A stretch of DNA of 39,095 nucleotides from a virus. Shown here one piece after another: positions 1-12,500 of the stretch. Numbering within the stretch: position 1 is the first letter of the stretch; every line of letters begins with the position of its first letter. Location: IMG/VR virus record IMGVR_UViG_3300046691_000215, positions 1-39,095 of that record; one strand, 5' to 3'. The position numbers and the translations under genes were made by a program. Below the pieces are notes generated by a model. It did no database searches, was not told where the DNA came from, and worked only from the letters and a program-made list of their open reading frames with translations.

Positions 1-1354
1 GGTTGACCTCTTCGGTTTCAAGGGCATGAATCGCCGCTTCGGCGGTTTTACGCCAAGCCTCGCGCACCTCATTGCGGCGCTTGTCGTCCGGGCTTTTCTC
101 GATGCCGCGCAGCAGCAACGGCAAGGCGATGCAGGCGGCGATCAACGACAGCAGAATCACCCCGGCCGCGATGAAGATCAGCAGGTCACGCTCGGGAAAT
201 GCGTCGGCACCCATGAACATCGGCACCGACATCACACCCGCCAGCGTCACTGCCCCGCGCACGCCACCGACGGTCAGCAACCAGCAGGAACGGGCGCTCG
301 GCACCCGGGTAATCTCAGCCTTGCCACGCCAGCGCCGCAACAGAATGGACAGGCGCCAGATGCTTTGCACCCAGACGAACCGCAGCACCAGCAACACCAG
401 GAAAATCGCCAGCACATCGAAGCAGCGATACAACAGCGTCGGCCACAGCGAGGTTTCATGGCTGGCAACGGCCTTGATGATGTCTGGCAACTGCAAGCCC
501 AACAGCAGGAAAATCAGGCCATTGAAGGCGAATTCCAGCAATGACCAGACACTGCGATTGAGCAGCCGCGTGTTGGTCTGGCGCGGCAGCAGGTCGAGCC
601 AGCTCTGCATCATCCCCGCCGCTACCGCCGACAGGATGCCCGATGCACCCACGCGCTCGGCCAGCACGTACGCGGCAAACGGCAGCAACAACATGAACAC
701 GACGTGGGTGGCCGGGTCATCCCAGCCACGGGCGATCATCCACGCGCGCAGGCGCCCCACCAGCCAGCTCAACGCAACGCCAATCGCCAGGCCGCCCACC
801 GCCACCAAGACAAAGGTGACACTGGCGTTGGCCAGCGAGAATGCCCCGGTCACGGCGGCCACAAGCGCGAACTTGAAGGTCACCAGACCCGAGGCATCGT
901 TCATCAGCGCCTCGCCCTGCAGAATGTGCATCAAGGGCGTCGGCAAGCGATTCTGGGAGATCGCCGAGACCGCCACGGCGTCCGTGGGCGACAGCACTGC
1001 CGCCAACGCAAACGCCACGGGCAGCGGGATACCTGGCAGCAACCAGTGAATGAAATACCCGGCGCCGACCACGGTAAACAGCACCAAACCCACGGCCAGG
1101 GTCAGGATCGGTCCACGTAGCTGCCAGAATTCACGCTTGGGCATGCGCCAACCGTCGGAAAACAACAGCGGCGGCAGGAACAGGAACAGGAACAATTCGG
1201 GGTCCAGCGCCACATGCAGGCCGAGGGTCGGCCAGGCCAGCAAGGCACCCGCGGCAATTTGCACCAACGGCAATGGAAGCGGGATCACCCGCCCCAGCAA
1301 GCGTGAAACGCCCACCAGCATCAACAGGATCAGGACGGTGTAGGCGGTTTGCAT
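1..1354 (-). CDS. Na+/H+ antiporter, CPA1 (NhaP/YjcE-like) family, 3' end cut by window
   Basis: An inner-membrane cation/proton antiporter exchanging Na+ (or K+) for H+ in pH and salt homeostasis. About 451 N-terminal residues are visible from the ATG at 1354, starting MQTAYTVLILLMLVGVSRLL. There are roughly a dozen hydrophobic segments. The family signatures FLFLPPLLFSDGW, ALAAVLSPTDAVAVSAI and GEALMNDASGLV are present; the last carries the ND pair expected in the ion-binding site. A basic linker and the TVGGVRGAVTLAG motif follow, also typical of CPA1. The reading frame is open to base 1, so the C-terminal cytoplasmic part is missing. It is host chromosome flanking the prophage and transcribed away from it. 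The assignment to CPA1 is secure; the exact subfamily and ion are inferred. Confidence 0.93.
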   Translation of the reverse strand, partial: MQTAYTVLILLMLVGVSRLLGRVIPLPLPLVQIAAGALLAWPTLGLHVALDPELFLFLFLPPLLFSDGWRMPKREFWQLRGPILTLAVGLVLFTVVGAGYFIHWLLPGIPLPVAFALAAVLSPTDAVAVSAISQNRLPTPLMHILQGEALMNDASGLVTFKFALVAAVTGAFSLANASVTFVLVAVGGLAIGVALSWLVGRLRAWMIARGWDDPATHVVFMLLLPFAAYVLAERVGASGILSAVAAGMMQSWLDLLPRQTNTRLLNRSVWSLLEFAFNGLIFLLLGLQLPDIIKAVASHETSLWPTLLYRCFDVLAIFLVLLVLRFVWVQSIWRLSILLRRWRGKAEITRVPSARSCWLLTVGGVRGAVTLAGVMSVPMFMGADAFPERDLLIFIAAGVILLSLIAACIALPLLLRGIEKSPDDKRRNEVREAWRKTAEAAIHALETEEVN

Positions 1355-2603: not shown

Positions 2604-3299
2604 ATGAATGGAAACAGCTTAAAGTCTGAAATAAAAAACATCGTATCAACACTAAACTTCGCATGGATACAAACCAAGCCAAGCATGATACATGCACACC
2701 ATAGACTTGCACTCAAAAGTAGTGACAAAACATCACACATTTCGCCTGAGTACGACATCCCTGTACAGGACTTAGTAAGCAAAACAGTTATCAGGCCATC
2801 AGTAATGCAAGGATATCTAGAATACAAAGCAATCCCCTCGATACTTCCTTACATACAAGCAATAGCAGAAGATTCGATTCAGGAAAAAAGACCATCAGAT
2901 AAAAATATTAGCCAAAGAATAGAGTCACTAGTACATAACAAACGAATAACCCGAGAGCTTGCCAGCAAGGCTCATTACTGGCGCATAGTCAGAAATATCA
3001 TAGCTCATGGATCCAATAAAATCACAAAACGAACAGAATCAGAAGTAAACAAACTTTTCAACAATGGGGATATTTTATTCCGCAATTTTGTATTTTGGGG
3101 GCCTTTAATATACATCAGATCAGACGACCAAATTGAAGGCTCAATGGTTCCACTTACAGATGAAGCTGTCGCATCACCTCAAGAACCAAATGATCAATGC
3201 TTCATTATCGATGCAACAGACGGGGAGACTATAGCAATAGGCTTGGCTGATCTGCTTGCCGCGGCAGAGGTATGGGCAGAAGTTATTGATTGCGCATAG
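2604..3299 (+). CDS. HEPN-like accessory protein (possible RNase/defence cargo)
   Basis: A 231-residue protein from the ATG at 2604, without a clear ribosome-binding site. The gene is much richer in A+T than its surroundings, a sign of recent acquisition. The key feature is the motif R130-N-I-I-A-H135 in the context WRIVRNIIAHGSNK. This matches the R-x4-6-H signature of HEPN domains, which in many toxin and abortive-infection proteins forms the RNase active site. The preceding region (about residues 75-130) is predicted helical, and a more beta-rich C-terminal part (about 150-231) follows. No adjacent nucleotidyltransferase or antitoxin gene is visible. Being outside the phage operons at the border, it looks like a self-contained moron. 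The HEPN call rests on the motif and helical context only. Confidence 0.5.
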   Translation: MNGNSLKSEIKNIVSTLNFAWIQTKPSMIHAHHRLALKSSDKTSHISPEYDIPVQDLVSKTVIRPSVMQGYLEYKAIPSILPYIQAIAEDSIQEKRPSDKNISQRIESLVHNKRITRELASKAHYWRIVRNIIAHGSNKITKRTESEVNKLFNNGDILFRNFVFWGPLIYIRSDDQIEGSMVPLTDEAVASPQEPNDQCFIIDATDGETIAIGLADLLAAAEVWAEVIDCA

Positions 3300-3774: not shown

Positions 3775-4005
3775 CTACGTTGAGGCCAGCGTCCTCAGCC
3801 GCTCTTCAGTCGCGGAATCGAAGATGACATAGAGCCGATCAATGGTCGCTTCACTCAACGCACAGGCCGATTCCAAGCCGAGAACAAACCCCTCAGCGCG
3901 TGCGCCAGCTTTCGCCGCAACAATCATCGAATCCGCCTGGGCGATCTGAGCAAGAAGCTTGTCGGCCTCGCGCTCGATCTTTAGGCTCAGCTCTACGCCT
4001 TCCAT
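3775..4005 (-). CDS. Small helical protein downstream of endolysin
   Basis: A 76-residue protein. I chose the ATG at 4005 because AAGGTGG precedes it; a longer in-frame start at 4086 would run back into the endolysin coding region. The product begins MEGVELSLKIEREADKLL and is mostly helical and acidic, with an Ala/Gly-rich middle and no membrane span. It is the last gene of the late operon, starting 27 bases after the endolysin stop. Small genes in this position are common in Pseudomonas prophages, but I cannot assign a function. Confidence 0.6.
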   Translation of the reverse strand: MEGVELSLKIEREADKLLAQIAQADSMIVAAKAGARAEGFVLGLESACALSEATIDRLYVIFDSATEERLRTLAST

Positions 4006-4031: not shown

Positions 4032-4667
4032 CTACAGGATAGCGGCATGCGCACCGGCGGACAGCACCGCCGAGGCTTTCGCCCACAACTTCAATCGCTC
4101 GGGCTGCCCATTAAGCCCGCCATTGATGCGTCGAGTGATCGCCTCGAACTGGCCAGCGTCCGCCAATTCATTCAGGCCGTTGCTCGACCAGAACCAGGCG
4201 GCAGAGAGAGCAGCATATGCCGGCTGCTCCAGCAGTTCCGGTTTTGTCAGCAGGTCCAGGCTCAGGGCTGAGCCGCATGCCTGATAGTTGACCCAACCGG
4301 TGACCTGGATCAGTCCTCTGCCACGGTACCGCCAACCGTCGCCCGTCACAGCAGGACCATTACCAAGGCGCGAGGCGTAAACGATGTTCGCGATCTGTTC
4401 CGGCTTGCGCGCGACACTGGTTGCGGTCGCCAGGTTGAATCGCTTCGGCCAAGTCCGGACCAGACCCTCGGCGCTGTAGTTCAGGTTTTCGACCAGGGTG
4501 CGCAGTTGGCCGGACTCATGCCCGACCTGTGCCAGGAACGCGGCAACACGCAACGGCCCTTGAATGTTGAATCGCGCCATCGCGTCATTTAGCGCGGACA
4601 CAAAAACGCCGGCAACTGGGCCGGCGTTCGGGAGGATCTGCAGCAGTTGCTGCGCTGTGATGGGCAT
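4032..4667 (-). CDS. Endolysin, glycoside hydrolase family 19 (chitinase/lysozyme-like)
   Basis: A muralytic enzyme that cleaves the glycan strands of peptidoglycan at the end of the lytic cycle. The product has 211 residues; the ATG at 4667 is set by GGAG 8 bases upstream. The N-terminal half carries VAAFLAQVGHESGQL with the catalytic Glu51 and ENLNYSAEGL with further acidic residues. The central signature GWRYRGRGLIQVTGWVNY (residues 111-128) is typical of GH19. The C-terminal part, WFWSSNGLNELAD and ITRRINGG, matches the conserved end of the fold. No signal peptide is seen, so export depends on the holin encoded far upstream at 26.5 kb. It lies at the distal end of the late operon, separated from the spike gene by the two plus-strand cargo genes. 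A decayed partial copy lies at 5755-5992. Confidence 0.92.
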   Translation of the reverse strand: MPITAQQLLQILPNAGPVAGVFVSALNDAMARFNIQGPLRVAAFLAQVGHESGQLRTLVENLNYSAEGLVRTWPKRFNLATATSVARKPEQIANIVYASRLGNGPAVTGDGWRYRGRGLIQVTGWVNYQACGSALSLDLLTKPELLEQPAYAALSAAWFWSSNGLNELADAGQFEAITRRINGGLNGQPERLKLWAKASAVLSAGAHAAIL

Positions 4668-4679
4668 ACTTTTCTCCAA

Positions 4680-4702
4680 ACCCGCGATCGGCGGGTGTTT
4701 TT
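4680..4702. other. GC-rich hairpin before endolysin, T-run on plus strand
   Basis: ACCCGC (4680-4685) pairs with GCGGGT (4691-4696) around GATCG, followed on the plus strand by a run of T. On the minus strand the hairpin is followed directly by the endolysin ribosome-binding site, with no U-run. It could stop plus-strand transcripts, or it could be a 5' mRNA hairpin that modulates endolysin translation. Confidence 0.4.
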
Positions 4703-4728
4703 GGCGTCTCAAATTGTTACGAAATTAA

Positions 4729-4757
4729 GAGTATTTAAACCAATACTCACGTATGAT
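4729..4757 (+). promoter_or_regulatory. Candidate promoter with palindromic operator for the first cargo gene
   Basis: A perfect inverted repeat GAGTAT-N8-ATACTC (4729-4748) is followed by a good -10 hexamer TATGAT (4752-4757). The left arm occupies the -35 position with a 17-base spacer and is a poor -35 match. The promoter is therefore probably controlled by a protein binding the palindrome. Translation of the cargo gene starts at 4811. Confidence 0.4.
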
Positions 4758-4810
4758 TTGCGCCTTTGTTTTTCATCCGGCAACTTCAATACAAGGCAGT
4801 AGGGTCATCC

Positions 4811-5689
4811 ATGGATAGGGTAATAAATACGCTCGCAATCGGTACTTGCAGAGTCGCAGGACCATGCGAGAATCTAACCAGCAATGGGTTTAGTGGTTTG
4901 GAGAAATTCCCACACCACCTTCATTACCCTTCTCAAATTCTGCAAACCTTGAAACATTACGATGGACACAACGCCATTCCGCAAAAGCTCCTTTATCTTA
5001 TGTCCGAAGACTCAATAAGAAAAAGCGCCATGCGGCCTGGCTTTATTGCCTCCCACACCATCGAAGTTAGAAAACACAAAGATTTCACGAAAAAGTTCGA
5101 CAAATACATTATTGAACTAAGCGGACTGCATGAACTGATACATACCAGCGGAATGTTCGTAGAGTACTTCGCTAGGCGCGACCTTTCAGAGTATGGCGAC
5201 CAGTTACAAAACCTGCACGCCGAAGGCCTAATTGATTATGTACATCCAAAGGACATAACAGCTAGACAGGTCGCTGACGATTATTTTATATCGGTAATGT
5301 CGGACATATCGAAATTTCTACACCACAAACCCATTCTATGGGTTTCCCATTTCGATGCATCTGCCCCAGCCCGGGTTCGAGAGTCAAGGCAGCGATGCAT
5401 TGATCTAGTTAAAAGAGGCGCAGAAAAAACTGGCGGCAGTTTTTTTGACCCGACCAATGTTGTTAACAGTCTTGGCCAGCACAAAGCGCTCAAAGAGAAT
5501 GGAGATGACCTCGCTCACTTTTCTGATGAAGCTATGAGTTGTTTGGCTGAAGTATACCGCTCATGGATTTACACTGGCAGCCACCGCTGGATACATAACA
5601 AGAAACGTTTTTCCAACCTGCTACGCAAACCAATATTTCACCTTTCCACCGGCCTAATATTTGCTGCGACTGGGTTTTACTTTATCTAA
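4811..5689 (+). CDS. Cargo protein A, possible SGNH/GSCFA-like enzyme with hydrophobic C-terminus
   Basis: A 292-residue protein from the ATG at 4811 (AGGG about 8 bases upstream); a TTG at 4766 in the same frame is less likely. It begins MDRVINTLAIGTCRVAGP. The beta strand-turn IGTCRV resembles the first block of SGNH-fold proteins such as GSCFA or WcbI (G-[ST]-C or GNC). Further blocks are HYPSQILQ (about residue 38), ILWVSHFDASAP (about 178) and FFDPTNVV (about 212). DLAHFSDEA (about 235) recalls the D-x-x-H block that closes SGNH active sites. The last 25 residues are hydrophobic and may anchor it in a membrane. It is a paralogue of the gene at 6071-6850. It is AT-rich, opposite in direction to the late operon, and has its own promoter and terminator, all hallmarks of a moron expressed in the lysogen. 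Its function is unknown; surface glycan modification is an inference. Confidence 0.6.
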   Translation: MDRVINTLAIGTCRVAGPCENLTSNGFSGLEKFPHHLHYPSQILQTLKHYDGHNAIPQKLLYLMSEDSIRKSAMRPGFIASHTIEVRKHKDFTKKFDKYIIELSGLHELIHTSGMFVEYFARRDLSEYGDQLQNLHAEGLIDYVHPKDITARQVADDYFISVMSDISKFLHHKPILWVSHFDASAPARVRESRQRCIDLVKRGAEKTGGSFFDPTNVVNSLGQHKALKENGDDLAHFSDEAMSCLAEVYRSWIYTGSHRWIHNKKRFSNLLRKPIFHLSTGLIFAATGFYFI

Positions 5690-5691
5690 TC

Positions 5692-5717
5692 AAAATCCCG
5701 CAATTTGCGGGATTTTT
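5692..5717 (+). terminator. Rho-independent terminator of cargo gene A
   Basis: A 10-base stem formed by AAATCCCGCA and TGCGGGATTT around a 3-base loop is followed by T residues. It starts 3 bases after the stop codon of the cargo gene and reads with it on the plus strand. Confidence 0.8.
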
Positions 5718-5754
5718 CCTCATTCAAAGTAGACACCACAACCACCGTTCTCAA

Positions 5755-5992
5755 TTTCCACCATGCCCATTTTCTTGGAACAAGCGAGTCAACGCCTCCC
5801 CTTTTCGCTCCATTGTTCAATCAGGATCAGACGGCAGACAGCGCAGCATGTGCCGACTGCTTCAACAGATCCAGTGAGCGGATCCAGGCTCAGGGCTGAG
5901 CCGCATGCCTGTATTTGACCTAGCCGGCGACCTGCATCACTCACCTGCCTCGGCCCCGCCAGCCAGCGCTCGTAATGGCATGACCTATACAT
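5755..5992 (-). pseudogene. Decayed partial second copy of the GH19 endolysin gene
   Basis: The minus strand here aligns with the middle of the intact endolysin gene. Bases 5883-5911 are identical to 4255-4283 over 29 positions (the part encoding QACGSALSLD). Flanking similarity covers the segments that encode GDGWRYRGRGLIQVTGWVNY on one side and PAYAALSAAW on the other, with frameshifts and stop codons. Similarity fades near 5755, in the part matching EAITRRINGG. Only about a third of the gene is represented and no open frame survives. It lies directly before cargo gene B, just as the intact endolysin lies directly before cargo gene A. This indicates duplication of a lysin-cargo unit followed by decay of one lysin copy. 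Confidence 0.85.
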
Positions 5993-6070
5993 ATCCGGGG
6001 GCTTTAAGTAGAATTTCCAGAATCCATTTTGAAAACTATTGAAACCTCAATGAACCGAGCAGGCACACAA

Positions 6071-6850
6071 ATGAGCACATTAGGGTTTGGAACAGACCGA
6101 ATCGCTGAGGCGCTCATTAAAGTTAAAAACAATGTAGACAGCAACTTATCAATATTTCCCCACAGACTGCATTACCCCTCTCAAATTCTGCAATCAATCA
6201 AGCATTACAACGGCGCAGAAGAAACCATACCTTCAGGACTTCTGTACTTGATGTCCGAAGACTCATTGATCAAGAGCGCAACAAAGCCTGGATATCTTAA
6301 GCATCACAAAAATGAAATCAAGGAATACTCTGGATTCATTGATAGGTATGACAGCTTTATAATTGAGATAAGCGATCTGACCGAAGCAACTTACAATGAG
6401 TTTTTTTACACTGAGCACTTGGCAAAGAAAAATCTCGCAGCTTACCAAGCACACCTTGAGCTACTAAGCTCATACAACCAAATTGAGCTTGTGAAGTCGT
6501 CCGACGTCATTGAGCGTCAAATTCCTGATTCATACCTCATTTCTGTGATATCTCAAATAACCAGCGTACTCGATGAAAAACCGATACTTTGGGTTTCGCA
6601 TTTTGATGCGTCAGCCCCAGAAGAAGTGCGTAACGCCAGAAGGCGCTGCATCGATGTGGTAAAGAAAGGCGCGAAAACTTACGGAGGAAGTTTCTTTGAC
6701 CCTACGAACGTTATCTTCGAGCTGGGCCAGTCCGCAGCATTGAAGGACGATGGTAAAGATCTGTCGAGCTATTCTGAAATGGCGACAGAGTGTGTCGCAG
6801 AGGTTCTTGAGCATTGGGTAAATGGAGCACACCACCCGTGGATCGTGTAA
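6071..6850 (+). CDS. Cargo protein B, paralogue of cargo protein A
   Basis: A 259-residue protein. The ATG at 6071 (AGG 9 bases upstream) aligns best with the start of its paralogue; ATG at 6050 and TTG at 6029 are in-frame alternatives. Its opening STLGFGTDRIAEAL aligns with the INTLAIGTCRVAGP block of protein A. HYPSQILQ, YLMSEDS, ILWVSHFDASAP and FFDPTNVI are shared with A almost residue for residue. Two putative active-site blocks differ: GTC becomes GTD, and DLAHFS becomes DLSSYS, losing the His. The hydrophobic C-terminal tail of A is absent. The copies have therefore diverged in function, or one is inactive. It is AT-rich and opposes the late operon. No clear terminator follows; an inverted repeat CCCGTGG/CCACGGG spans the stop codon without a T-run. 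Confidence 0.6.
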   Translation: MSTLGFGTDRIAEALIKVKNNVDSNLSIFPHRLHYPSQILQSIKHYNGAEETIPSGLLYLMSEDSLIKSATKPGYLKHHKNEIKEYSGFIDRYDSFIIEISDLTEATYNEFFYTEHLAKKNLAAYQAHLELLSSYNQIELVKSSDVIERQIPDSYLISVISQITSVLDEKPILWVSHFDASAPEEVRNARRRCIDVVKKGAKTYGGSFFDPTNVIFELGQSAALKDDGKDLSSYSEMATECVAEVLEHWVNGAHHPWIV

Positions 6851-6898: not shown

Positions 6899-8956
6899 TT
6901 ACATTGCTACCCAGGCTCCCGTTGCCCAGCGCCACCAGCCAACTGTCCCGGTCTGAAGAAACAAGAAGCCTTCTGGCGCCGCAGTGATAGCGGTCCTGAC
7001 AGCGATGGGTCCGACGTTCGGGATCGAACTGTTCAATGCCGTACCCTTCAGCCCGGCGGCGGCATCCTGCATGACCGTCTGCAAAGCCTTCGTGCCATCG
7101 GTTACCGTGATCTGGTGACCTGGAATGAACTGGGAGCTGGAAACTTCGGCTGCTGAAAACCGCAGATCCACCGGAAACTCGGCCATGGAATGAGTGGCAA
7201 CCAGGTAGAGATCTTCCGTGTCATGGGAAACGCGGAAGTTGGAATAGCTACCGTCGAAGCGTGAAGCGATGCTGTTGATACCAATGGTGTTGCCACGGGT
7301 CAGGGTGGTGGTTGTACCTCCGTTAACTTTGTAACCGGAGGCCGGACCGTCAGGTCGATTGAAGATTGCTGAGAATGGACCTGCTGCTTGAAAGTGGACT
7401 TCAGTTCCAGCAGGAACCTTGATCGAATATGGGTAAAACTGGCGCAGATAGATGTTGGGTGTTTGCACCACAGTCAGCGGACGCCCGCCACTATGGCGAA
7501 GCCCGGAAAGTCCGAACGACCCATCAATCCCAATAGCGCCGCGCCGCACCAGATTCACATTGAACCGATCCTTTGGCAGGCCGTACTCTTCTAGGATCGC
7601 ATCGCAGACAATCTGGGAGATCATGCGCGTGGCGGGCGCCTGATAGTGGACGTTGTCCGACCAGAAATAATAACTGGTGGTATTGGCGAACAGGCTATAA
7701 AGCGGAATGAATCGGATGCCGTAGAAGTCGCACAGCTTTTTCAGGCTGCTGTTCCATGCGACCGCTTTGAGGCGATTTGTCTCGGTTCCGTGATAGGGGA
7801 TCGACTGCACCATAGGCCGAATTCCGCCGATCAGCAGTCGCTCGATTTGCAGCCGCATGAAGTCCAAGTACTGCTCGCGGGTATAACCCTGCGCAATGTC
7901 GTTGGTCCCCCAGGCCAGCACCATTACCTGCGGCTGAAACGTAGAGATAGCTCCCTCAAGGCCAGCCCATCCGAACTCAGCAGTTTGGCCTGGCGAGCCG
8001 TCCCCCCTGACGCGGCCTTCAGCGTAGTAGACATACTCGCGCAGTTTCATCTCTACGTTGGCGGGTGTCGATCCCTCGCCCAGTACGGATACTCGATTGG
8101 CAGTGGCATCGCAGAACGCAGTGTTGGAATCACCCCAGAATGCGATAACCGGACCCACTTTCCAAAAGAATGAGGCGTCGTATTTCTGGTAAGCCTCTTG
8201 CGGGAAGAGAACGCCATCGACAATTTGCTCGTGAGCCAGAAGGGGATCCCCGCCAACCGGCATTGCCATGACTGAACCCCTAGTTTCCAAGTCCTTTCCT
8301 TTTGCTGTAACGGTGCTCGAAAGCGGGTAGATCCCCGCGTTGATATCCATCGCCCACGATGCATTGATTCCGGCATTGAGGTTTCCTGCTTGGTCCGCCG
8401 AGCCTGTACCCGTCGCGCCAGAATCGACAGCATTTGGGACAAGTTTCCTCGACAGCTCCTGGCGTAAAGCGGCATCGCCCACAGAGACGAAGTTAATAGA
8501 TTCGGCCCCCCATACGCCTGTCGTCACATACGGAAGCGCAACAGAGGCTTTCGGCTTCCACAGCTCGCCATCCTTCAGCATGATCTCATTTCGTTCAGCG
8601 AACGTAACCGGCTGCGAGGCGTAATCACCAATTACGTCATAACCGGAAGTCGCGATGAATTCATCGAATCGATCGGCTCTATCCGCCTGGGCGGTATCGA
8701 ACTCGGATTCACGTCGACTCTGGTCAGCATCAAACTCAGCTTCGCGCCGACTCTGGTCAGCATCAAATTCAGCCTCGCGCCGAACTTGATCAGCGTCGTG
8801 CTCACTCTCCATCCCCTTCCAGGACTTGAGTGGAACTCCCAGCCGGTTTGGAACAGGGGCAGTTCCTCCGGTCAGCAGTAGATCGAAATCCTCAGCGTTA
8901 TCGATCAAATCCTTCGGATGGGTTGAGCCGGGTGCGTTACCGGTGTTGTAAGCCAT
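6899..8956 (-). CDS. Tail spike/fibre with SGNH (GDSL-type) hydrolase domain
   Basis: A 685-residue receptor-binding protein. ATG 8956 is chosen because GAGA lies about 9 bases upstream; ATG 8962 is also possible. Residues 1-50 probably bind the tail tip. Residues 54-97 are four 11-residue repeats of the DADQSRREAEF type, a likely trimeric coiled coil. A GDYASQPVTFAERN-type neck found in many tail fibres follows. An SGNH hydrolase domain spans about residues 265-465, with GDS (Ser277), GTND (Asn352) and D434-N-V-H437 all present, so it should be an active esterase or deacetylase. The C-terminal 200 residues are beta-rich and may bind the receptor. The expected role is removal of acetyl groups from the lipopolysaccharide or capsule during adsorption. 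It is the last structural gene before the cargo genes and endolysin. Confidence 0.87.
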   Translation of the reverse strand: MAYNTGNAPGSTHPKDLIDNAEDFDLLLTGGTAPVPNRLGVPLKSWKGMESEHDADQVRREAEFDADQSRREAEFDADQSRRESEFDTAQADRADRFDEFIATSGYDVIGDYASQPVTFAERNEIMLKDGELWKPKASVALPYVTTGVWGAESINFVSVGDAALRQELSRKLVPNAVDSGATGTGSADQAGNLNAGINASWAMDINAGIYPLSSTVTAKGKDLETRGSVMAMPVGGDPLLAHEQIVDGVLFPQEAYQKYDASFFWKVGPVIAFWGDSNTAFCDATANRVSVLGEGSTPANVEMKLREYVYYAEGRVRGDGSPGQTAEFGWAGLEGAISTFQPQVMVLAWGTNDIAQGYTREQYLDFMRLQIERLLIGGIRPMVQSIPYHGTETNRLKAVAWNSSLKKLCDFYGIRFIPLYSLFANTTSYYFWSDNVHYQAPATRMISQIVCDAILEEYGLPKDRFNVNLVRRGAIGIDGSFGLSGLRHSGGRPLTVVQTPNIYLRQFYPYSIKVPAGTEVHFQAAGPFSAIFNRPDGPASGYKVNGGTTTTLTRGNTIGINSIASRFDGSYSNFRVSHDTEDLYLVATHSMAEFPVDLRFSAAEVSSSQFIPGHQITVTDGTKALQTVMQDAAAGLKGTALNSSIPNVGPIAVRTAITAAPEGFLFLQTGTVGWWRWATGAWVAM
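8666..8797 (-). repeat. Four 33-base in-frame repeats in the spike gene
   Basis: Codes for four consecutive 11-residue units: DADQVRREAEF, DADQSRREAEF, DADQSRRESEF and DTAQADRADRF. The two central units are nearly identical in DNA, the outer ones diverged. The period suits a right-handed or hendecad coiled coil, and copy number could change by slippage, altering shaft length. Confidence 0.85.
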
Positions 8957-9071
8957 GGGCATTTTCTCGCATGCACGCCGGCGCCGCCGCAATGTTGGCG
9001 GAGTCGCGAGCGATGTGTTTTAAGTTTTCCGGCGGGGTGCCGGTGGAAATTAGCGAAGCGCGTGAAGATGA

Positions 9072-9533
9072 TCAGTCGACGTGGCGAGGCCACTTCTGAA
9101 TCATGGCCCTGTCGAAGATGCTGGAATAGAGCACATACTCTGGAGCAAACAGAACCCACTCGGCGTCCACGAGCGGGCGTTTGAGCAACCAGAGTTCGGC
9201 GGTAAAACGCCAATGATCAACGCCAACCAACACTGGCCCGCGGTATATGTCGTCGAAGTTCGCCTGGTAGTTCTCGAGGCCCAGCGGTGATTTGAGTGGG
9301 CACTCAAATGGCAGCGTTCCAGAAACGAGCACATGCTCAAACCATCCTTCGAACAATTGCGCCTCGGAAGCACTGAGCAACCAAGTGACAGAAGTTCGGG
9401 TCGGTACGTTCTGGTAGGCGCGGCGCCGGATTTTCCTACCGGTCACCAATTGCGTACTGACCATCGGACTGACAGGATCGAAGCCATACCCCTCCCTCAA
9501 CGGGAGAGGCAGACCTTCCGGGTATTGGATCAT
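9072..9533 (-). CDS. Tail protein between tip protein J and spike
   Basis: A 153-residue protein, starting MIQYPEGLPLPLREGYGF. It is predicted beta-rich, with many aromatic residues and no membrane segments or Cys. Position and size match a small conserved protein of D3-like Pseudomonas siphophages encoded between the tail tip protein and the receptor-binding protein. A role in joining spike to tip or in baseplate structure is inferred from location only. The start is 9 bases after the stop of the tip gene, so translation is probably coupled. Confidence 0.7.
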   Translation of the reverse strand: MIQYPEGLPLPLREGYGFDPVSPMVSTQLVTGRKIRRRAYQNVPTRTSVTWLLSASEAQLFEGWFEHVLVSGTLPFECPLKSPLGLENYQANFDDIYRGPVLVGVDHWRFTAELWLLKRPLVDAEWVLFAPEYVLYSSIFDRAMIQKWPRHVD

Positions 9534-9542
9534 GTGTCGTCC

Positions 9543-12500
9543 TTACGGTGCCGGAGCGTTGTCGTAGGTGTAAACGCGTTCGTCGTAGGGCATGCCCTTC
9601 AACGCCACGTTGCCGTTGGATGGAGATGAACTATTTACCAGGACCGGATAAGCCCACTTGCTTGCCGGGCCTATCAGCAGCTGCGGTAGCTCCAGGGTCA
9701 TGCTGGTGTCTGGTGTGAAGTCCAGATCGACGATCTGCAGGCGGTATTCATCAATCGCGGTGACCGGGAATGGCCCAGAGAGAGAGCCATCAGGACGGCT
9801 GATGCCGACACGGTAGGCCTCGGGCGCAGACCAGTCGATCGGCTCGGTCGATTCCAGCAAGAAGCCGCCGGTGGTTGCCGTGACGCTACGCAACTGCGCG
9901 CTTTGGCACAGCCCCGGAGTATCGCTGGCGACAGCGCAGAAGCTGAGGTAGCCGCTGTTCATGCCGGCCAGCTCGGTTTCCCAGCTGTAGGTGTCTTGGC
10001 GAAACAGTTGGTGACCGCGGCGGCGCATGCCGAACTGGTAGGCGCGGTCCCGGTCACCCACGCCTGGCAGCTTGACCTTCTCGACCTTCAGCCCCGCATC
10101 ACCAGGCCAGCGGCAGGGCACGGTTTCCCAGGCCCATGTCAGGTTCGAGTAATACTCAACGTCGACCCCGTCGAAGTCGTTGATTGATGGCAGCGGCCCG
10201 TCGATCTTGAGACCCTTGGTCATGTTCTGCGGCGAGTAGGTCTGCGTTTTCGGACCGTAGGTGATATCGAATGCCGCCCGGGGCTCGTCGCGCACCAGGC
10301 TGACCAAGCCGTTCTTGATGGTCAGCTCGGCAAAACCACAAGCCAGCGCATTGTTCAGCCGGTCCTTTGCCGTGCTGGTGTCGTCGATAACCTCGTCGTA
10401 ATACTGGCCGGCAGCCTCAAATACCGTGTGCAAGCGATCCCACTCGGGCAGGTCGATATCGGCGTCGGTGTATCCGAGTGACTTCAGGACATGCAGACAC
10501 CAGGGCACTATGCCACGCGTTGGTTGCGGCGCGGTCCAGACGCCACCGGTGTAGATCGGCAGTATCCTGGTTCCAATCAGGTTGGCCTGGCTTTCCGACT
10601 GAGCCGACAAGCGATCACCGCTGCGGATCTGCAGCGCCATAACGGTCATGCCCGGGTAACTGGTCGGTCGGACCTGGCGCAGGCTCCGCAGGCTATACCA
10701 GCTGATGTCGTCCTGCTTTTCCGAGTCGATGCGGCCTGGCTGACTGACGAAGCGCTTCTTGATTCGAGCCTCAGGATTCATCGGGTAAGGCAGGGTCGTG
10801 CGATACGTGAAGCCTTGCGCGTCGCGCGTCCCGCCGTAGTGCTCTTTCTCAATCACCGTCACAGGCCCGGCCGTATCCGCGTCGCGGAACTCGAAGGCAT
10901 GGAACGACCTGACCGGGTAGATCTGCCCTTCCCGCCCAATGCCGCACAGGCCATTTGGGTGAAATACAGTCCACTCAATCTCGGTGACCAGTTCGCCTTT
11001 CGGGGCGCAGCTGAACCAGCCACGATAGCCGCCCTCCAGGTTCGACGGGTCCAGGGTAATCAGCCCGTTGACGGTTTCGGTCAGATCAAAACCTGGCCAA
11101 CCCGAATCGACAGATCCGGACGAGGTCAGGCGCTCAACAACCATAAGCGTCGAGCTGAAGGCCGTGATGCGATAGCGCAGGCCGACGGGCCCGATGGTGG
11201 CCAAGGCCGATCCGAGCGCAAGACCGACTACAGGCTGCCCACCGACGTAATCCAGGGTCATCTCTGCCGGTTGCTCAGGCGTCCCCGAAGTAGCTGCCGT
11301 GCCAGTGGTATTGATTGGACTGGAGCCGAGCACGTCAGCCCCGCCGGACGCGACCAGGGCCAGCCCGTTGTTGGCGCCGGTTTGCGTAAGCAGGACTTTG
11401 CCCGCGGAGACACTGGCAACGAACGGCGCGGCACCCTTGGCGGTATTAATTGCGGAGACTAGGCCCGCAAGGTCGGTAGTTGCCGTATTCAGCGCGACAG
11501 AATACGGGGTAGCGCCGAGCGAGACCGTGAAGGTCAGCGGCGTCACGTTGTAATCGTAGCGGGCTGGGATGCTCGAGCTGAGAATCGTCGACGGCGCGCC
11601 AGCAGTCGGCGGCACGGCCGGCGCATACGGGGTGTGAGAGTGGACAACGTAATAACCGGCGTTCGCACCCTGGACCTCGATCGACATGCCAACCGATGGA
11701 TTCAGCATTTCCAGCGGGCCACGCACAATGTCTCGCCCGGCGCCGCCGTCGATGACGGTGTACACGTACGGCGAGAGGACGCGAATGATCAGGCCGCTCT
11801 CCCAGTCAGTCGGGAAGGCGCCAGCACCGGACGGGATGCCGATACTGGTCCCGATGAACTGGTAGGCCGAGGCTGTCGCGGTCTGCGTCAGCGCGGTGGC
11901 CACAGTCATTTCCAAGCCGGCCGAACCGTTGGAGCTGGCCCCGACCTCGTCGACGTTGTACCAGAGCATCGATGCCGTATTGCCTGACACATCGGCGCCA
12001 GGCGGGTAGATAGTGCAGATGGCGTCAGAGCCCAACGAGATAAGCGGGGTTTCGCCGATCTTAATGTCGCTGGTGGTGACCTGCACGCTGCCGGCCGAAA
12101 CGTAGAGCAGCATTTCAGTCCACTGCTCGCGCGGCGCCACAAACCAGGTGCGCGGCTCAGCCAGATAAGCCGGGAACAGTTTCTGCCTGCCGGCCAGGTT
12201 GCGCACCGGATCGCCGATCTTGACCTTGTTGCCCTTCGCGCTGGCCTCGTCGATCGGGTCGCCCTGGGCGGTGCCGGCCATCGAGGGCATGCCAGGCATC
12301 TTGGGCATGAGTAATTTGCCTACGGCCTTCACGCCCTTGAACAGCAAGGCGGTGATGGTAAAGGGGTCTGTGCCCTTCGGCTCGCGCCAGATCTGGACGT
12401 GATCGGCCGGCTTGAATTTGACCTTGTGCCAGAGCGTCGGGCAGATCAGTTCGCCATTGATCTCGACGCTGATCGGCTGAACGGGCGCGCGGCGGTAGTG

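Follow-up and report, generated by a model that had tools for sequence, protein, structure and literature searches.

A TviD-like protein and a paralogue lacking its predicted catalytic residues form a candidate lysogenic-conversion cassette between the tail spike and the endolysin of a temperate phage

IMG/VR virus record IMGVR_UViG_3300046691_000215 (39,095 bases, the whole of which was analysed and is called the window here) carries two paralogous genes, A and B, on the plus strand of a cargo slot bordered on the left by a GH19 endolysin gene and on the right by a tail spike gene. We read the two genes as a lysogenic-conversion ('seroconversion') cassette, in which a TviD-like O-acetyltransferase (A) would be accompanied by a pseudoenzyme partner (B), and put the probability of this reading at roughly 0.68. 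That the cassette encodes an enzyme modifying surface polysaccharides is predicted from one line of evidence, the homology of A to TviD.

TviD is the O-acetyltransferase of the Vi antigen (PMC9597891, PMC11385387), which is O-acetylated in the cytosol (PMC3448643). Protein A matched the NCBIfam TviD model (NF011727) at E 1.3e-9, while B matched it at E 1.6e-4 to 3.9e-6 and an A-type protein from another phage (L006) at 2.6e-4. The score of A, 36.7 bits, lies below the equivalog cut-off of 1808 bits, which refers to the full-length protein with its tetratricopeptide repeats (TPR); A is related to TviD and is not a TviD equivalog. A tblastn search with A led to TviD-like proteins on Caballeronia plasmids, where the gene stands in a Vi-like locus together with genes for a nucleotide-sugar dehydrogenase, a glycosyltransferase and polysaccharide export. 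The profile of the phage family was aligned by hhalign with the N-terminal part of Caballeronia TviD (98.1%, E 1.3e-13, 215 columns), and the TviD gene was its sole match across a 685-kb plasmid. Judged by these alignments, A corresponds to the catalytic region of TviD only, as a free-standing protein. Common to A, the L006 protein and Caballeronia TviD are G11-T-C13-R14, H180/D182, D213-P-T, G222-Q and D233-x-x-H236-F. Gene A is under purifying selection, with a ratio of nonsynonymous to synonymous substitution (dN/dS) of about 0.08-0.1 (Nei-Gojobori method, NG86; dN.009-.027, dS.12-.28). Its G+C content is 45% and that of B 44%, compared with 57.5%, a low value as usual for cargo genes.

The N-terminal homology covers the GTCR, VxHxD, DPT, GQ and DxxHF motifs of TviD from the Salmonella Typhi viaB locus and from Vi-like loci of Burkholderiales. 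In TviD, however, a TPR half recruits TviE, whereas A and B stand alone and neither has TPR; moreover, A and B lie in a prophage and not in a capsule locus, and B lacks the Cys and the His. Homologues of TviD were not previously known outside Vi-antigen systems.

Neither A nor B could be assigned to a family by searching Pfam, PHROGs and PADLOC. Neither protein matched the SGNH models of Pfam, nor its GSCFA model up to E 1, so that a GSCFA-like nature, suggested for the pair in an earlier note on this DNA, finds no backing. PDB sequence searches with A and B returned chance matches only and no TviD structure, and no relative of either was found by tblastn in an annotated phage collection or by contig scans. 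In A, GTC13 follows a predicted strand (residues 8-11), and D233xxH236 is also present; a Cys after the first strand and an Asp-x-x-His are reminiscent of blocks I and V of SGNH hydrolases (PMC9487903). Fold searches gave nothing below E 0.03, and the weak matches included recurring acetylxylan and other SGNH esterases (Axe2, LAE5). An SGNH fold for A is plausible but unproven. For TviD, Wear et al. (2022) reportedly proposed a fold of SGNH type whose triad is atypical. The motifs, which are compatible with SGNH hydrolases, and the weak fold matches, most of them to esterases, would also suit an A that acts as a deacetylase or other acyl hydrolase, stripping modifications from host polysaccharide rather than transferring acetyl groups. 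We consider such an esterase unlikely, since TviD, the closest homologue of characterised function, is an O-acetyltransferase, a cytoplasmic protein that has no signal peptide would encounter the polymer while it is being made, and the slot cargo of other phages comprises acetyltransferases. A Cys-His arrangement similar to that envisaged for A is found in WcbI (PF18588-type, Burkholderia capsule), a protein binding coenzyme A (CoA) in which Cys14 and His201 are close together at the thiol of CoA (PMC4104973). WcbI, however, has no sequence match to A or B and a reportedly novel fold, and the resemblance is one of analogy only.

Proteins A and B are 48% identical over 258 amino acids (E 2e-91) and have in common the blocks HYPSQILQ, ILWVSHFDASAP and FFDPTNV, which had already been recognised. 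Where A has GTC, B has GTD, with Asp at the position of Cys13, and where A has DLAHFS, B has DLSSYS, with Ser at the position of the His. The conserved Cys and Asp-x-x-His, present in A and in the L006 protein, are therefore missing from B. Absence of the His and of the hydrophobic tail had been pointed out in the earlier note, which made no mention of the change at Cys13. Both substitutions and the loss of the tail are constant in B of all three carrier phages, and B is under purifying selection (dN/dS about 0.06-0.17 by NG86; dN.005-.028, dS.08-.19) with its frame intact in all three. The loss of these residues in three phages combined with slow protein evolution indicates that B is a maintained, probably non-catalytic paralogue, which speaks against the decay of B previously considered. 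Its most likely start is the ATG at 6071, because an upstream ATG at 6050 is missing in the relative L004.

Whether a maintained B serves A is a separate matter. It is possible, though on balance doubtful, that B is a remnant under residual or very recently lost constraint, or has a separate and unrelated function, and that A works alone: both predicted catalytic residues are lost in B and L006 carries the A type only, but across three phages dN/dS is equally low for B and for A. An obligate enzyme-pseudoenzyme pair, in which a soluble TviD-type O-acetyltransferase relies on its catalytically dead paralogue for activity or for binding of the polymer, is likewise a tentative proposal. Directly after A lies a hairpin with a T-run, which is kept in L004 (-13.2 kcal/mol, z -4.9) and was not listed by a pattern scan. 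As this hairpin is strong and terminator-like, B presumably has a promoter of its own; a promoter search gave none above chance. A tree of A, B and the L006 protein with TviD as outgroup did not discriminate among topologies (approximately unbiased test, p 0.31/0.41/0.68, based on only 1000 resamplings), and the split of A and B may lie either within this phage lineage or outside it.

The window holds a temperate phage, with genes for an integrase, a CI-like repressor, an anti-repressor, a terminase, a portal, a tape measure and tail proteins; it is best explained as D3-like and of Pseudomonas type. A and B are placed as D3-type cargo is, with the tail spike on one side and the endolysin on the other. 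In D3, this region holds genes for an O-antigen acetylase, iap and a beta-polymerase (wzy-beta), and D3 Oac has been reported to acetylate lipopolysaccharide, making phage binding impossible (PMC11436027). The same slot holds an AT3-SGNH 'O-antigen acetylase' in FBPa47, an MBOAT and an ALGX protein in JBD44, an AT3-SGNH protein in the IMG/VR phage L101, an ALGX protein in L017 (next to a GDSL spike; the lysins of L017 and the window are 94% identical), a Wzy-type polymerase in PP9W, Fyn8 and Marin, and a polysaccharide lyase in L102; in several others the slot is empty. AT3-SGNH, MBOAT with AlgX, and Wzy genes are thereby represented among the slot contents of Pseudomonas phages other than D3. 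Cargo is oriented opposite to the late genes in all these phages, as are A and B, except in D3, whose acetylase is on the late-gene strand. With known or predicted surface-polysaccharide genes occupying the slot elsewhere, context points to the probable function class of A and B, in agreement with the earlier proposal of lysogenic conversion at the cell surface, to which the relationship of A to a polysaccharide O-acetyltransferase now adds.

A and B share with the D3 seroconversion region its position and, as we infer, the same effect on the receptor, but D3 uses a membrane AT3-type acetylase and polymerase genes, whereas the TviD-type A and B would be soluble or tail-anchored. The AlgX/AlgJ-type (PF16822) and AT3-SGNH (PF01757+PF19040) cargo of JBD44, L017, FBPa47 and L101 resembles A and B in slot, in opposition to the late genes and in predicted polysaccharide O-acetylation; the sequence families differ, A and B having no Pfam match. 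Several genes of these phages were noted in passing. In JBD44, gp40 (L107:4198-6809, plus strand), annotated as hypothetical, is the ALGX protein (6.7e-13) beside the MBOAT gp41, and the L017 gene at 4502-5812 (minus strand) encodes an ALGX-type (PF16822) predicted O-acetyltransferase. In L102, the polysaccharide lyase (PF14099; 2754-3524, minus strand) adjoins the spike and an AT3-SGNH acetyltransferase gene follows further on (8919-11102, minus strand). L103 carries two tandem AT3-family genes (7466-9781, plus strand) shortly after its GH19 lysin.

The window spike itself bears a GDSL domain and is possibly, or even probably, a receptor deacetylase. Among Klebsiella prophages, spikes with an SGNH domain have been predicted to act as deacetylases, and two of them are active as esterases (PMC13123978). 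Next to a cargo enzyme adding acetyl groups, a spike that takes them off would form a natural, though not obligatory, receptor-modification pair. O-acetyltransferase cargo and a GDSL spike occur together with A/B and in L017, and not in L006 or L101, an anecdotal count. The window spike shares its N-terminal attachment part with L098 and L099, where different receptor-binding ends follow it.

A signal peptide is not evident in A or B, and the window holds no membrane acyltransferase (AT3). A role of the two proteins inside the cell, for example in anti-phage defence or counter-defence, would be in keeping with both observations. Against this stand the want of any credible defence-family match in PADLOC, the slot, which is a surface-glycan slot, and the precedent of TviD, which acts on polysaccharide in the cytoplasm (PMC3448643); we regard an intracellular role as highly improbable.

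Between A and B lies a broken GH19 lysin copy, which corresponds to the central part of the gene and is on the strand of the present lysin. Positions 4177-4358 and 5810-5985 aligned with a score of 151 (79.5% identical; maximum of 31 in 300 shuffles), confirming the copy that had been noticed, with its 29 identical bases (4255-4283 and 5883-5911), a run inside the match. When extended, the match covers 4154-4381 and 5790-6007 at 76% identity, with frameshifting gaps. A single tandem duplication of a lysin-cargo unit, with later divergence of B, had been proposed from the arrangement of lysin, A, lysin fragment and B; the matching orientation of all pieces and the paralogy of A and B are in its favour. 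Fourfold-degenerate sites of A and B, however, are identical at 13 of 55 (0.236; random 0.251) and hence saturated, so that dS is not computable, whereas the unselected relic is still about 78% identical to the lysin. An unselected fragment of equal age would have diverged further, and an origin of the four pieces in one duplicated unit is not supported. In a fixed alignment, the relic matched the L017 lysin at 157 of 218 sites and the window lysin at 156 of 218, and in local alignment it was slightly closer to the former. An origin of the relic as a copy of the present lysin was rejected on account of this equal closeness. In a FastTree tree of the short region, the relics fell within the window-lysin clade as a long branch, with weak support.

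Comparison with relatives bears on the same proposal. L003/L005 (one contig) and L004 keep the arrangement A-relic-B-spike almost unchanged, with DNA identities to the window of 97 and 93% for A and 98 and 94% for B in L003 and L004, respectively. The relic is present in L003 and, in shorter form, in L004, while the active lysins have been swapped: the GH19 lysin of L003 is only about 74% identical, and L004 has an unrelated PF07486 cell-wall hydrolase. L006 carries, at the same position and beside a different spike, a single A-type gene (49% identical to A, 41% to B), and no lysin relic was detected in its slot, an arrangement that the earlier note had named as telling against duplication. 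Taken with the age mismatch and the closeness to the L017 lysin, these observations leave a single tandem duplication very unlikely, the least probable of the alternatives weighed here. The simplest history would be stepwise loading of the slot and replacement of the lysin by recombination at the junction, with the relic as the stump of an earlier resident lysin, a scar of that loading and not of an A/B duplication.

Several observations weigh against a seroconversion cassette of enzyme and partner. Identity between A and TviD is just 25-29%, and the TPR region of TviD is missing from A. AlphaFold2 models have a mean predicted local distance difference test (pLDDT) of 50, too weak to assign a fold, and gave no significant fold match. 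The spikes of L006 and L101 have no GDSL domain, so that a pairing of acetylase with deacetylase is not general. Finally, the partnership of B with A is deduced solely from their co-occurrence in three closely related phages.

If A and B do form such a cassette, the following course may be envisaged: 1) A would take acetyl groups onto Cys13, with the help of His236 and Asp233; 2) it would O-acetylate, in the cytoplasm or at the inner membrane, a polysaccharide of the host surface, with the hydrophobic tail of A as a possible anchor; 3) B, which keeps the framework without the catalytic Cys and His, would most likely serve A as a non-catalytic partner, a substrate-binding or regulatory subunit; and 4) O-acetylation would alter the receptor for the spike of the phage itself and for competing phages, which may result in superinfection exclusion.

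Features of the slot are collected in Table 1. To its left, the window opens with an incomplete Na+/H+ exchanger gene (1-1343, minus strand; PF00999, 9e-70), probably host DNA, and the prophage boundary probably lies to the right of it; in L003, other host-type genes border the phage. A left accessory region contains a gene for a DUF4145 protein (2604-3299, plus strand; 6.8e-7), in place of which L003 has an unrelated gene of 230 amino acids, indicating turnover here as well. The gene immediately downstream of the lysin (3775-4005, minus strand) encodes a small conserved protein of uncharacterised function (phrog_36962, 3.7e-33).

Table 1. Position and strand of the features of the cargo slot in the analysed window
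Feature	Position	Strand	Remarks
Phage record	39,095 bases		IMG/VR virus record; whole window
GH19 endolysin, present active copy	4032..4673	-	Pfam Glyco_hydro_19 1.9e-9; phrog_181 endolysin 1.8e-90
Gene A, 292 aa, TviD-like, stand-alone	4811..5689	+	GTC13R, D233LAH236F, C-terminal hydrophobic tail
Hairpin and T-run directly after A, terminator-like	5692..5716	+	-14.9 kcal/mol, z -5.3
Decayed GH19 lysin fragment (gene middle), frameshifted	5790..6007	-	matches 4154-4381
Gene B, 259 aa, paralogue of A	6071..6850	+	Asp for Cys, Ser for His; hydrophobic tail absent; predicted pseudoenzyme
Tail spike with SGNH/GDSL esterase domain	6899..8992	-	Lipase_GDSL_2 5.5e-11; phrog_17635 tail fiber 2.7e-16

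Serotype conversion by phage-encoded O-acetylation is known from membrane acyltransferases of the D3 Oac type. If true, a prophage-borne enzyme of TviD type would extend the TviD family beyond Vi-antigen systems, and an obligate pair would represent a novel design for serotype conversion, without a membrane AT3 or MBOAT acyl-transporter. Protein A would also provide studies of structure and mechanism with a compact TviD of one domain, which has a natural pseudoenzyme counterpart. As one slot repeatedly takes unrelated types of O-acetyltransferase, the spike-lysin junction is a promising site in which to search for surface-modifying enzymes not yet discovered.

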